A stretch of 22,927 nt of DNA. It comes from a virus. The translations under genes were made by a program, and so were the position numbers. The notes beneath the pieces were generated by a model. It worked only from the letters and a program-made list of their open reading frames with translations. It was not told where the DNA came from and searched no databases. This document shows positions 5,751 through 22,656 of the stretch, one piece after another. Within the stretch, counting starts at the first letter, position 1; every line of letters begins with the position of its first letter. The DNA lies in IMG/VR virus record IMGVR_UViG_3300047318_000496, positions 1 through 22,927 of that record; one strand, given 5' to 3'.

Positions 5751-6617
5751 CTACAGGCTTTCGAAGTAGGCGGACTGGTCGGTGGGGTTGGTCCACGGCT
5801 GGTAGTTGCCGCTGGCCACGGCCTTGAGCTGTGGCGCCGACCCGGCGGGGACTTCAGGCAGGCCGCCCCAGCCCGGAAGGAAGTAGCGGGCGGAGTAGGG
5901 CGGGTTCTTCGAGCTGCGCCAGACGCGCTCGGCGTGATCGACGAGGACGGGCACGCTGCGGGTGGCGACGAGGCCGGCGAGCTTCTTCCAGTCGGCTGCC
6001 TGGAGCTGCCAGCTGATGCGCATGCCGCGCAGGGTCATCTCGTCGATGAGCGGCTGGACGATCTTGAGTGCATCGACCTCTCCCGCTGCCGGCTGATCAA
6101 CGGCGCGGGGGGGATGTGGTTGAACATCTACATCGTGGTTTAGCTGGTCTTGGTAGTGGGGTCCGGTTTCCGGACCCCTAGGGGTCTCGTTTTCGGACCC
6201 CTGGGGTCCGGTTTCCGGACCCCTAGCGTTTTCGCTACCGGTCCGGTTTCCGGACCCCTGCGCGGCGCTAGGGGTCTCGTTTCCGTACCCCTGCGATACG
6301 GCTAGAGGTCCGGTTTTCGGACCCCTAGAGCCACGCTCCGGGCGGACATAACCGACGGCGCCGGGCACCCGGTAGAGCGCCGAGCGGGTGCCGCGCGCCT
6401 CCTCCAGGAGCTCCAGCTCGCCGGACTTCACGAGTGCATCGACGGACTTGATCACCGAGGAGCGCGCGGCGTTGCTGAAGTGCGTCAGCTCGGCCGTGCT
6501 TGCCCGGACCGTGCAGTCCGGCCCCGTGATCCAGTTGGCGACGGCCAGCATGATGTGTCGGCCGGTCCCCTTGGACTGGGAGTGGTTCCACACCCAGTAC
6601 ATAGCGTCGATGCTCAC
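5751..6617 (-). CDS. Replication initiator (lambda O-like), winged helix plus C-terminal domain
   Basis: A 288-aa protein from GTG 6617. Residues 1-85 look like a winged helix (MYWVWNHSQSKGTGRHIML, then ASTAELTHFSNAARSSVIKS and a beta wing LELLEEARGTRSALYRV). Residues 98-154 are a low-complexity linker with repeats RGPxTGP, GNETP and SENETP, encoded by six palindromic DNA iterons. Residues 180-288 form a second helical/aromatic domain (WQLQAADWKKLAGLV ... SKNPPYSARYFLPGWGG). This plan, DNA-binding N-terminus, origin repeats inside the gene, partner-binding C-terminus and a helicase loader just downstream, is that of lambda O. The specific family is not certain. The start has only a weak purine-rich ribosome site. 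Confidence 0.78.
   Translation of the reverse strand: MSIDAMYWVWNHSQSKGTGRHIMLAVANWITGPDCTVRASTAELTHFSNAARSSVIKSVDALVKSGELELLEEARGTRSALYRVPGAVGYVRPERGSRGPKTGPLAVSQGYGNETPSAAQGSGNRTGSENARGPETGPQGSENETPRGPETGPHYQDQLNHDVDVQPHPPRAVDQPAAGEVDALKIVQPLIDEMTLRGMRISWQLQAADWKKLAGLVATRSVPVLVDHAERVWRSSKNPPYSARYFLPGWGGLPEVPAGSAPQLKAVASGNYQPWTNPTDQSAYFESL
6157..6326. repeat. Six palindromic iterons: putative replication origin inside initiator gene
   Basis: Six 23-bp units, each arm AGGGGTCCG, 5-nt GTTTT or GTTTC, arm CGGACCCCT, with few changes: 6157-6179, 6180-6202, 6202-6224, 6237-6259, 6270-6292 and 6304-6326. Start-to-start steps are 23, 22, 35, 33 and 34 bp, close to two and three helical turns. A mini version AGCG-TTTT-CGCT (6225-6236) sits between units 3 and 4. 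The units encode the repetitive linker of the initiator. By analogy with lambda ori, they are probable binding sites for that protein and mark the origin. Confidence 0.75.
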
Positions 6618-19534: not shown

Positions 19535-20104
19535 GTGGGGGTGCAGGCCATGACGGGAACGAAGATGTCGACGGCAATGCGGAGCTTCACCGCACTCGCA
19601 ATCACACTCTTCGCCAGCGGAATCCTCACCACCCTCGCCGCAACGTGGGCCGACCATCCAGCCCAAGCCGCCGGCGGCAGCGCCGTTACCGTGACCGCCC
19701 TCACGATGTTTGCACTCCCCTGCATCCGGCGGTGGATCCTCGAAGCAGGGGACCTGCGCGACGTCGCCCTCGGCCAGATCGGCGAAGCCCAGAAGGAAAC
19801 GGCCCGCGCGCTGGCCGCCCAGGCCGCCGTCGAGGTCGAGCGGGGCCGCATGCGCCGGGACGCCGCCTACGACGCGCAGCGCAGCGCAGCCGCGATAGCC
19901 ACCGAGAAACGACGGCTACAAGAACAGTTCGACGCAGACCGCACAGAGATCATGTGCAACGCCTACGAGGCCGGCGTCCGGCACGCACTAGCCGGTGTCC
20001 TTGAGGCCCCTGAGCGGCCCGGAGGCAGGTCAGTGGTGCCGTTTCCGTCGCCCGCCGCACGCAGCGAGCAGCTCCAGAAGCGCGGCGTCAGCCATCCTTC
20101 CTGA
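19535..20104 (+). CDS. Two-helix membrane protein with cytoplasmic coiled coil, 189 aa
   Basis: GTG 19535 has GGAGG 6 nt upstream and starts 1 nt after the repressor stop, so the two are one operon. Membrane helices at about 16-36 (SFTALAITLFASGILTTLAA) and 47-65 (GGSAVTVTALTMFALPCI) are followed by a long charged coiled coil at 70-150. Cotranscription with the repressor implies expression during lysogeny; membrane proteins in that position often exclude superinfecting phages, which is inference here. The last 17 nt overlap the convergent integrase gene. Confidence 0.75.
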   Translation: MGVQAMTGTKMSTAMRSFTALAITLFASGILTTLAATWADHPAQAAGGSAVTVTALTMFALPCIRRWILEAGDLRDVALGQIGEAQKETARALAAQAAVEVERGRMRRDAAYDAQRSAAAIATEKRRLQEQFDADRTEIMCNAYEAGVRHALAGVLEAPERPGGRSVVPFPSPAARSEQLQKRGVSHPS

Positions 20105-21851
20105 ACCCCGGCTCGCCCACGAACGACATCGTGATGCGGCCGGGCAGGATCTTCTGCGCCCCCTTCACGTGGGCGTGAAACAGGCGGATCGTGACGATCA
20201 TCCGCATCGCGGAGCGTTTCTGCTCCGGCAGCAGCGCGTTCCACTTCTGCTCGGCGTCCGGGTTCCCGACAAGATCGCGCAGTAGCGGCGGCACACTCGC
20301 CGGGCCCCGATCAGCAACCTCTCGCAGCTCGTCGATCTGCGGCGTCAGCATCGTCTCCATCGCCGCTAGCGACATCACCGACAGCTCCGGCGTGCCGTCC
20401 GCCCTGAACGTGGTGGCGGCCGTCCGCGCCTCCTGCAACTGGTTCTCCAGCGCGAACAGCCGGGTCCTCGCCGCCTTCACCTCGGCAATGTCCTGGTCCA
20501 CCTGGAAGGCAGCCGAAGCCGCCGGCGACCGAAGCCAGCCGATGATGGCCTCCTCGACGTACGCCTCGAACTGCGGAGCGCGAATTCCGGTGTCCCACAC
20601 CGTGGAGCACAGGTAGTAGTGCGTGCCATTGCGCTTGGCCGTTTTGATGAACGGGGGCGGCTCGCCGACGAGGAGCGCCAGCGACGGCTCGTGACGTTCG
20701 ACCTCGTCGCGCAGGGCCCGCAGCGTGTCGTCGTCCACCTCCCCGTGCCCTTTCCGTACGACACGGCGCATCTGCGGCAGCACTGGGCGCCACCCTGCTT
20801 GGTACATCGCGCGCACGGCGTGGCACCGCTCATCGGCGTACACGACCTCGGGATCGGGCGCCGGGATCTCGACCGGGCGCACTCGCCTGCCGGCGGACAG
20901 GATGCCGTCCTCTTCGTGCTCTCCGCACAGGGGGATGTAGGTGAGGAGGTGGGCGAGCCGGGATAGCCGGTGGGTGAGGCGGGTCGGGTCGGCGAGGATC
21001 GCCTGGGCGCGCTGGTAGGTCTCCGGGAAGTCGTCGTCTTCGCCGATGGGGGGCCACTTGGCGTCGCGGACGATTTTCCCTTGATGGACGCGTTTCCCGT
21101 TGTAGGCGGGGTTCCGAAGCACCGTGCCGACGCGCTCAACGGTCCATGGCCGGCCCCCCGGGTGCCAGGCGGCCGGGTTGCTGTTGAGCCACTGCGCGAT
21201 GCCGTACAGCGTCTGTCCAGCCACCAGCCGCGTGAACATCTCGGCGACGATGGGCGCCCGGACAGGGTGTCGAACCTGCTCGACGAGCTCGCCGGTTTCC
21301 GGGTCGTAGCGTCGTTTGTAGCCGAACGGGGGGCGGCCGCCTGGCTTGCCCTGATTGGCGAGCTGGCGCTGCGTACGGACCTGCCGATCGCGGATGCCTT
21401 CGGCTTCGTCTTCGGCGTCGAGGGCGTCCCGCGCAGTCGCCTTTCGGTCCTCGCGTTTGCTGAGGTCGTAGACGGTGCCGTTGTAGCAGAGCAGGACGTT
21501 CGCCTCGTAGCAGGCGTTGCGGAGGCGTACGTAGACCCCGAGGTCGCGGTAGTAGCGGGAGGCCTCGAAGGCGACGACGATGCGGCACTCCCGGGCCCGG
21601 ATGCCTTCGAGCATGGCTTCGAAATCGTCGCGGCGCTTCTTGGCGTGGCGGCTGGCGGAGCGGCCGACGTCCTTGTCGAAGACGCCGACGATCGGGAAGC
21701 TGTGCCGCTCGCAGAGGTCGCGGCCTTCGTGGAGCTGCCCGTCGACGGAGCGGCCTTTGCCGGTGGGGTCGTGGCTGTTGCGGCCGTAGAGGAAGGCGTT
21801 GAAGGTCTCGCCGGGGTAGACCAAGTGCAGGTATGCGGGGTCGACGGGCAT
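20088..21851 (-). CDS. int: Large serine recombinase (phage integrase)
   Basis: 587 aa from ATG 21851, chosen because a -10 box ends 6 nt before it; ATG 21875 lies inside the attachment-like dyad. The resolvase domain (17-165) has nucleophile S26 in LYGRNSHDPTG and the arginines of VGRSASRHAKKRRDDF. The recombinase domain follows (GKPGGRPPFGYKRRYD at 169-184, LRNPAYNGKRVHQGK at 245-259), then a zinc-ribbon region and a coiled coil (about 447-512). The zinc ligands are unusual: C309-x2-H312 and C415, with about 95 residues between them. This family integrates phages by cutting attP and attB with a 2-bp stagger. No excision factor is recognised nearby. Convergent overlap with the membrane gene. 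Confidence 0.93.
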   Translation of the reverse strand: MPVDPAYLHLVYPGETFNAFLYGRNSHDPTGKGRSVDGQLHEGRDLCERHSFPIVGVFDKDVGRSASRHAKKRRDDFEAMLEGIRARECRIVVAFEASRYYRDLGVYVRLRNACYEANVLLCYNGTVYDLSKREDRKATARDALDAEDEAEGIRDRQVRTQRQLANQGKPGGRPPFGYKRRYDPETGELVEQVRHPVRAPIVAEMFTRLVAGQTLYGIAQWLNSNPAAWHPGGRPWTVERVGTVLRNPAYNGKRVHQGKIVRDAKWPPIGEDDDFPETYQRAQAILADPTRLTHRLSRLAHLLTYIPLCGEHEEDGILSAGRRVRPVEIPAPDPEVVYADERCHAVRAMYQAGWRPVLPQMRRVVRKGHGEVDDDTLRALRDEVERHEPSLALLVGEPPPFIKTAKRNGTHYYLCSTVWDTGIRAPQFEAYVEEAIIGWLRSPAASAAFQVDQDIAEVKAARTRLFALENQLQEARTAATTFRADGTPELSVMSLAAMETMLTPQIDELREVADRGPASVPPLLRDLVGNPDAEQKWNALLPEQKRSAMRMIVTIRLFHAHVKGAQKILPGRITMSFVGEPGFRKDG

Positions 21852-21857
21852 GCGTTC

Positions 21858-21887
21858 ACGATAGCGGCAGACCATAACCCCTGACAG
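21858..21887 (-). promoter_or_regulatory. Integrase promoter, leaderless
   Basis: On the minus strand CTGTCA (21882-21887), 18-bp spacer, TATCGT (21858-21863), 6 nt, ATG 21851. The -35 lies within the attachment-like dyad, so integrase binding there could repress its own gene. Confidence 0.5.
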
Positions 21888-21925
21888 GGTTTCTATGGAT
21901 AGAAGTCAGCTAGAGGGTTATGGTC
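21870..21925. other. Dyad-symmetric 56-bp site upstream of integrase: candidate attP
   Basis: Outer arms GACCATAACCC (21870-21880) and GGGTTATGGTC (21915-21925) and inner arms TTCTAT (21891-21896) and ATAGAA (21899-21904) share one centre, the dinucleotide GG at 21897-21898. 19 of 28 position pairs (counting the GG as one unmatched centre) are complementary. Size, AT-rich inner part, central non-palindromic dinucleotide and place next to int fit a serine-integrase attP. It could alternatively be an integrase operator or a hairpin. Confidence 0.62.
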
Positions 21926-22181
21926 ACTCGTTGGAGTCGTTGCTGATCAGGTGACCGTTATCGCCAGGGGGCTGCTGCGAGAGTTCGTCGATCATTCGCA
22001 TGGCGTCGTCGAGAGCGCCCCGGAGGCGCTCGACGAGGAGAACCAGGGCGGCGGGTTCCATGCCTGCGAGGTCGGCGGCTCGTGCGTCGTCGAGGTCGCG
22101 GCGGGCGAGAGCGAGGCGTGTGAGTTGTGGTCGGTCCAGGCGTGGGCGCGCTGGGTCGGGTGTTTCGTTGCGGGGCTGCAC
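21924..22181 (-). CDS. Small helical protein upstream of integrase, 85 aa
   Basis: GTG 22181 has AGGAG 5 nt upstream and is preferred to GTG 22244, which lies in a palindrome upstream of the likely transcription start. The protein is charged with a long helix (LTRLALARRDLDDARAADLA, then VLLVERLRGALDDAMRMID) and a polar C-terminus. Its stop falls in the right arm of the attachment-like site. No family recognised; by position an integration accessory or excision-control protein would be a guess. Confidence 0.68.
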   Translation of the reverse strand: MQPRNETPDPARPRLDRPQLTRLALARRDLDDARAADLAGMEPAALVLLVERLRGALDDAMRMIDELSQQPPGDNGHLISNDSNE

Positions 22182-22220
22182 GGTTCTCCTGAGGTCCGTC
22201 GGCTGACGGTAGTGCTGATG

Positions 22221-22256
22221 AGTGTATAGACCAACGGAATTCACTCGAACGAGTGA
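22221..22256 (-). promoter_or_regulatory. Palindrome and -10 element upstream of the small integrase-linked gene
   Basis: TCACTCG-AA-CGAGTGA (22241-22256) is a perfect 7-bp-arm palindrome. On the minus strand a -10 like TACACT (22221-22226) lies 14 bp further on, with a poor -35 (TTCGAG) inside the palindrome. It is a likely operator for a dimeric regulator, for example the XRE protein at 22420. Confidence 0.45.
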
Positions 22257-22419: not shown

Positions 22420-22656
22420 GTGCCCCGAGAGCTACCCGAGGAGTCGGTCCTCAACCACCGGCGTGCGCTCGGATTGCGAATCTCGCAGCTCAGATATGCG
22501 GCAGACCTCACGCAAGACCGGGTTGCCGATCTGGCGGACATCCCCCGCTCTACCTACCAGCGCATCGAGGCCGGCCTGTCCGATCCCCGCTTCGGCTGGC
22601 TGCTGAGGATCGCCGCCGCCCTGGACGTCACGATCGCCGACCTGGTCGCCGAGTAG
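22420..22656 (+). CDS. Small XRE-family helix-turn-helix protein, 78 aa
   Basis: GTG 22420 is the first possible start; an in-frame TAG lies at 22414. Residues 10-75 (LNHRRALGLRISQLRYAADL, TQDRVADLADIPRSTYQRIE, LSDPRFGWLLRIAAALDV) are a full XRE domain and little else. The run AGGGGG touches the start codon, too close for a normal ribosome site, so the mRNA may be leaderless. It could belong to the phage or to the flanking chromosome. A likely target is the palindrome at 22241-22256. Confidence 0.75.
   Translation: MPRELPEESVLNHRRALGLRISQLRYAADLTQDRVADLADIPRSTYQRIEAGLSDPRFGWLLRIAAALDVTIADLVAE

Follow-up and report, generated by a model that had tools for sequence, protein, structure and literature searches.

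The window analysed here, an entire IMG/VR record of 22,927 bases, is a linear fragment of viral DNA. Towards its right end, on the minus strand, lies int (20088–21851), which encodes a large serine integrase of 587 residues. The product scores above the Pfam cut-offs for Resolvase and Recombinase (PF00239 and PF07508), matches phrog_95 (integrase), and carries the domain order expected of a large serine recombinase, with an N-terminal resolvase domain holding the catalytic serine followed by a recombinase domain; S26, in the motif YGRNS, is invariant across the 17 aligned sequences. We place the start of int at the ATG at 21851 (MPVDPAYLHLV), which aligns with the conserved start MPxxPEYLHL of all relatives. 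An ATG at 21875 was rejected as the start; it falls inside the dyad described below, and the extra residues of the longer reading frame are not conserved. The dyad therefore lies upstream of int and not within it. Further to the right, a small phage ORF of 106 codons with no assigned function (21924–22244, minus strand) is followed by a gene for an Xre-type helix-turn-helix (HTH) protein (22420–22656, plus strand), divergent from int, which matches Pfam HTH_31/HTH_3 and phrog transcriptional repressors and is a possible repressor.

Alignment of the integrase identifies the zinc-ribbon ligands C309, H312 and C415, the fourth being without clear assignment. Between C309/H312 and C415 we observe an insertion of about 83 residues (about 314–396; window positions 20664–20912) that none of the 16 aligned relatives has and that falls in a low-confidence region of the structural model. 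Since this insertion sits beside the zinc-ribbon ligands, the activity of the integrase is not certain. The AlphaFold model is mediocre (pLDDT 73.5, pTM 0.44); at its moderate confidence it contains two long helices, residues 452–480 and 492–519, as expected for the coiled-coil insertion. No solved structure related to the integrase was found by phmmer.

Between int and the small ORF lies an imperfect dyad (21870–21925) composed of two 27-nt half-sites around a 2-nt centre, its edge 18 nt from the int ATG. The elements described in the initial annotation are all present: the outer arms (21870–21880, GACCATAACCC; 21915–21925, GGGTTATGGTC) are complementary at 11 of 11 positions, the inner arms (21891–21896, TTCTAT; 21899–21904, ATAGAA) at 6 of 6, and both pairs share one centre, GG at 21897–21898. 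Across the whole 27+2+27 span, 19 of 27 positions pair. Shuffles of the same 56 bases pair at 6.8 ± 2.3 of 27, and none of 200,000 reached 19. The dyad alone is not extraordinary, as 17 of 100 shuffled 22.9-kb windows hold one of 19/27 somewhere, and the strongest dyad of the window, 21/27 near 6230, is not the int-side site and lies within an iteron array. Its significance comes instead from its position before int: in a frame of 24 positions modelled on that region, 19/27 is reached in just 0.1% of random cases.

Protein-only pattern scans of viral and genome collections found no close relatives; alignment-based scans recovered seven viral contigs and 14 Streptomyces genomes with a related int. 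The plasmid collection gave a match to a circular element of 51.7 kb from Streptomyces sp. NBC_01177 (NZ_CP108596.1; L003), with genes ordered as in the window (HTH, small ORF, int, two hypothetical genes, HTH), the first HTH gene occupying the same place, and with a 19/27 dyad centred on CC at the same location relative to int. Together with the prophage of Streptomyces sp. NRRL S-337 (L026), L003 carries one of the closest integrases found (61% overall identity to that of the window for L026, 50% for L003); both share the gene order, the CC centre and the leaderless promoter layout of the window, and differ from it in their arm sequences and in lacking the zinc-ribbon insertion. Dyads at the equivalent place and distance from int are also found in L012 and L013, again with arm sequences that are not conserved, and one unintegrated relative, L009, has no clear dyad (11/27). 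L003 is phage-like and has an intact attP-type site and a serine integrase, and it was deposited as a circular plasmid; an excised phage and a phage-plasmid are both possible identities for it.

Integrated relatives indicate where recombination takes place. In the closest relative found, NRRL S-337, a 54.6-kb prophage with int at one end interrupts a DUF4192 gene, and we defined its junctions against the uninterrupted DUF4192 gene of other Streptomyces (29 of 30 loci examined). On the int side the junction is ...GGGCTTCTATCC|AAACTACC (host to phage), on the far side ...GGGGTTTCTTC|CCGGACGAC (phage to host), and the two share exactly two bases, CC, equivalent to GG on the plus strand of the window. 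Rejoining the phage halves gives CCTACCCCTCTAGCGGGGTTTCTTC-CC-AAACTACCGACGCTAGAGGGGTAGG, a 25+2+25 dyad whose symmetry centre is the same CC, and joining the host halves restores the DUF4192 frame (PYLMGFYPDDSVVLVALHG). Three prophages that interrupt comEC (ISL-98, S. cahuitamycinicus 13K301 and S. stelliscabiei) again have CC as the joint of best symmetry. The junctions of all four relatives thus break at the central dinucleotide, where the initial annotation had placed the crossover, and we predict GG at 21897–21898 (CC in the int orientation) as the crossover dinucleotide of the window. Exact searches of the genomes with the att arms found no integrated copy of the window phage and no identical arm, so its own crossover and attB are predicted from these relatives.

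The same junctions bear out the earlier expectation that symmetry would be lost in hybrid sites. The rejoined attPs of the four integrated relatives pair at 20, 17, 13 and 14 of 27 positions, compared with 5–11 for their attL, attR and attB sites. Across all 21 relatives, unintegrated records score 11–19 and chromosomal copies 10–15 (P = 0.001, which is indicative because the relatives are not independent). By its pairing of 19/27, the window site falls in the attP class.

The DNA uptake gene comEC, identified by the translated motif DLTHLLAVSGxNLT and not by a family search, is interrupted by related serine-integrase prophages in L027, L029 and L034 (sequence upstream of int), paired with L060, L055 and L057, with crossover at CC; these comEC insertions agree with the reported enrichment of DNA competence genes among integrase targets (PMC10083194). 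BK340 (L028/L056) offered no unambiguous junction and is not among the four relatives counted. G022, considered as a second split DUF4192 gene, is actually a contig break. Upstream of int, L031, L032 and L035 share one common host target, AAGGGGAGTAGCTCTTCGCCC, which lies outside any identified gene; a yybP-ykoY riboswitch was discarded as this target after the remaining half gave no Rfam match.

The right flank bears on the state of the phage DNA. The stop codon of the small ORF reaches the dyad. Homologues of this ORF occur upstream of int in six of eight viral or plasmid relatives (E values down to 4e-15), and in several integrated genomes they lie near the far end of the prophage. Integrated copies therefore hold the whole prophage between the small ORF and int, whereas in the window the two adjoin, which is the unintegrated arrangement. 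The sequence to the right of 21925 is phage, so the site has phage DNA on both sides, unlike attL or attR, and the contig is not an integrated end, in line with the non-integrated origin first suggested for it. Judged by this gene order, the contig represents part of an unintegrated phage genome (virion, circularised or excised) and not one end of a prophage.

We propose that the dyad at 21870–21925 is, with high probability, the intact attP of a non-integrated temperate Streptomyces phage with a large serine integrase, and we infer that the integrase of the window acts on it. The site has the form expected of an attP, an imperfect inverted repeat of roughly 50 bp around a central dinucleotide beside the integrase gene. 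In such a scheme, an integrase dimer would bind the two half-sites, the bound attP would synapse with a host attB, both strands would be cut at the central GG/CC dinucleotide, and the integrase would rejoin the halves to give attL and attR.

The location of the dyad, overlapping the putative int promoter and 0.5 kb from an HTH gene, could also suggest an operator through which a dimeric regulator, for example the divergent Xre-type protein, controls int, with attP elsewhere. We regard this as improbable. A search of the window found no further arm copies beyond chance, the equivalent site in relatives is the place of recombination, and Xre operators are generally shorter than 56 bp. Less probable again is a chance dyad, or an RNA hairpin or terminator serving the small ORF. 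The frequency of comparable dyads in shuffled windows favours the former and the contact with the stop codon the latter; however, a terminator scan found no terminator-like site, the interior of the dyad is wide and unpaired, and L003, L012 and L013 each have a dyad with this same spacing from int although the arms are not conserved in sequence. We consider it least probable of all that the site is an attL/attR hybrid at the end of an integrated prophage. The record is indeed linear, and its right end lies about 1 kb beyond the dyad, but the site far exceeds the 5–11 of 27 seen in the hybrids of relatives, and the phage ORF on its right flank, upstream of int only in unintegrated relatives, already contradicts this origin.

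An attP beside int is ordinary in kind, and the int/attP arrangement is already known; integrase/att pairs have been predicted by the thousands (PMC10083194), and the attP half-sites of a Listeria integrase, about 25 bp each, are contacted along their whole length (PMC3783163). The nearest parallel is Streptomyces phage Joe (phiJoe; KX815338), a serine integrase phage whose attP, likewise an imperfect inverted repeat of about 50 bp, has GG at its centre and lies 18 bp upstream of int (PMC5311408); we also find TAnnnT 7 nt before its int ATG. phiJoe differs in its arm sequences, in the RDF gene that adjoins its attP, and in its attB, which is at the SCO2603 locus and not in DUF4192, the candidate for the window; it is not among the best phage matches listed for P0001. 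phiC31 and phiBT1 (AJ006589 and AJ550940) also encode serine integrases and have imperfect attP dyads (15 and 17 of 27) just upstream of int, but with centres TT and GT, a greater distance to int, and no TAnnnT-N6-ATG layout.

In the window site, the half distal to int ends with CTTCTATCC, which is also the B half-site of NRRL S-337. The same sequence is found in DUF4192 genes of some other Streptomyces (L062, L064, L072 and L073), and L061 has TTCTATCC in common with it. Seven matching bases beside CC would arise by chance with a probability of about 6e-5 for one given site. Because this inner distal half-site equals the B half of the nearest relative, we give about an even chance to the 'GFYP' stretch of a DUF4192 gene being the attB of the window phage. 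As the chance figure covers a single site and not all possible targets, and the arms are absent from every genome searched, this assignment is a lead and not a result. With its predicted crossover and with the 'GFYP' codons of DUF4192 as candidate attB, the well-defined int/attP pair would offer Streptomyces vectors another integration locus.

A putative −10 element, TATCGT (21858–21863, minus strand), lies outside the dyad, between it and the int ATG, ending 6 nt before the start codon. TAnnnT ends 5–7 nt (usually 6) before the ATG in 19 of 21 related int genes, compared with just 1.3% when every ATG in these loci is counted. Leaderless promoters have this spacing; for S. coelicolor, −10 motifs of the form TANNNT are reported, and about 21% of mRNAs are reported to be leaderless (PMC4895711). 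The best putative −35, inside the site as the initial annotation had it, is CTGTCA (21882–21887, minus strand; 4/6, spacer 18) in the int-proximal arm; the same hexamer and spacer occur in L003, and the −35 region is otherwise poorly conserved among relatives. A sigma-70 scan at a strict threshold found no promoter before int, and the promoter call therefore rests on comparison with relatives. On that basis, a leaderless promoter probably drives int, its −10 lying between attP and the ATG and its −35 in the int-proximal arm.

That integration itself alters int expression, as originally proposed, is not supported as stated. The half carrying the −35 and −10 stays with int after recombination, so the core promoter should survive integration, and host DNA takes over only from about −47 upstream. 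Any effect on int would need upstream elements, host read-through or integrase binding; in NRRL S-337, int and the host DUF4192 gene are co-directional. Tentatively, integrase occupying attP, or the hybrid site beside int once the phage has integrated, might mask the promoter and hold down its own production. It is also possible, if doubtful, that throughout this family of integrases the attP arm nearest int also serves as the −35 region of a leaderless promoter for int, that bound integrase represses its own gene, and that recombination swaps only upstream activating or read-through DNA, making attachment site and expression switch a single element. The literature searched yielded no account of an integrase regulating its own gene through a promoter embedded in attP, which is weak negative evidence. 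A conserved leaderless promoter abutting attP makes such autoregulation directly testable.

Elsewhere in the window, at 6153–6329, a palindromic iteron, GGGGTCCGGTTTCCGGACCCC, occurs six times in imperfect form at spacings of 22–35 nt. The iterons sit inside a replication-initiation (O-like) gene (5751–6617) and also hold the 21/27 dyad, and the region looks like a lambda-type phage origin.
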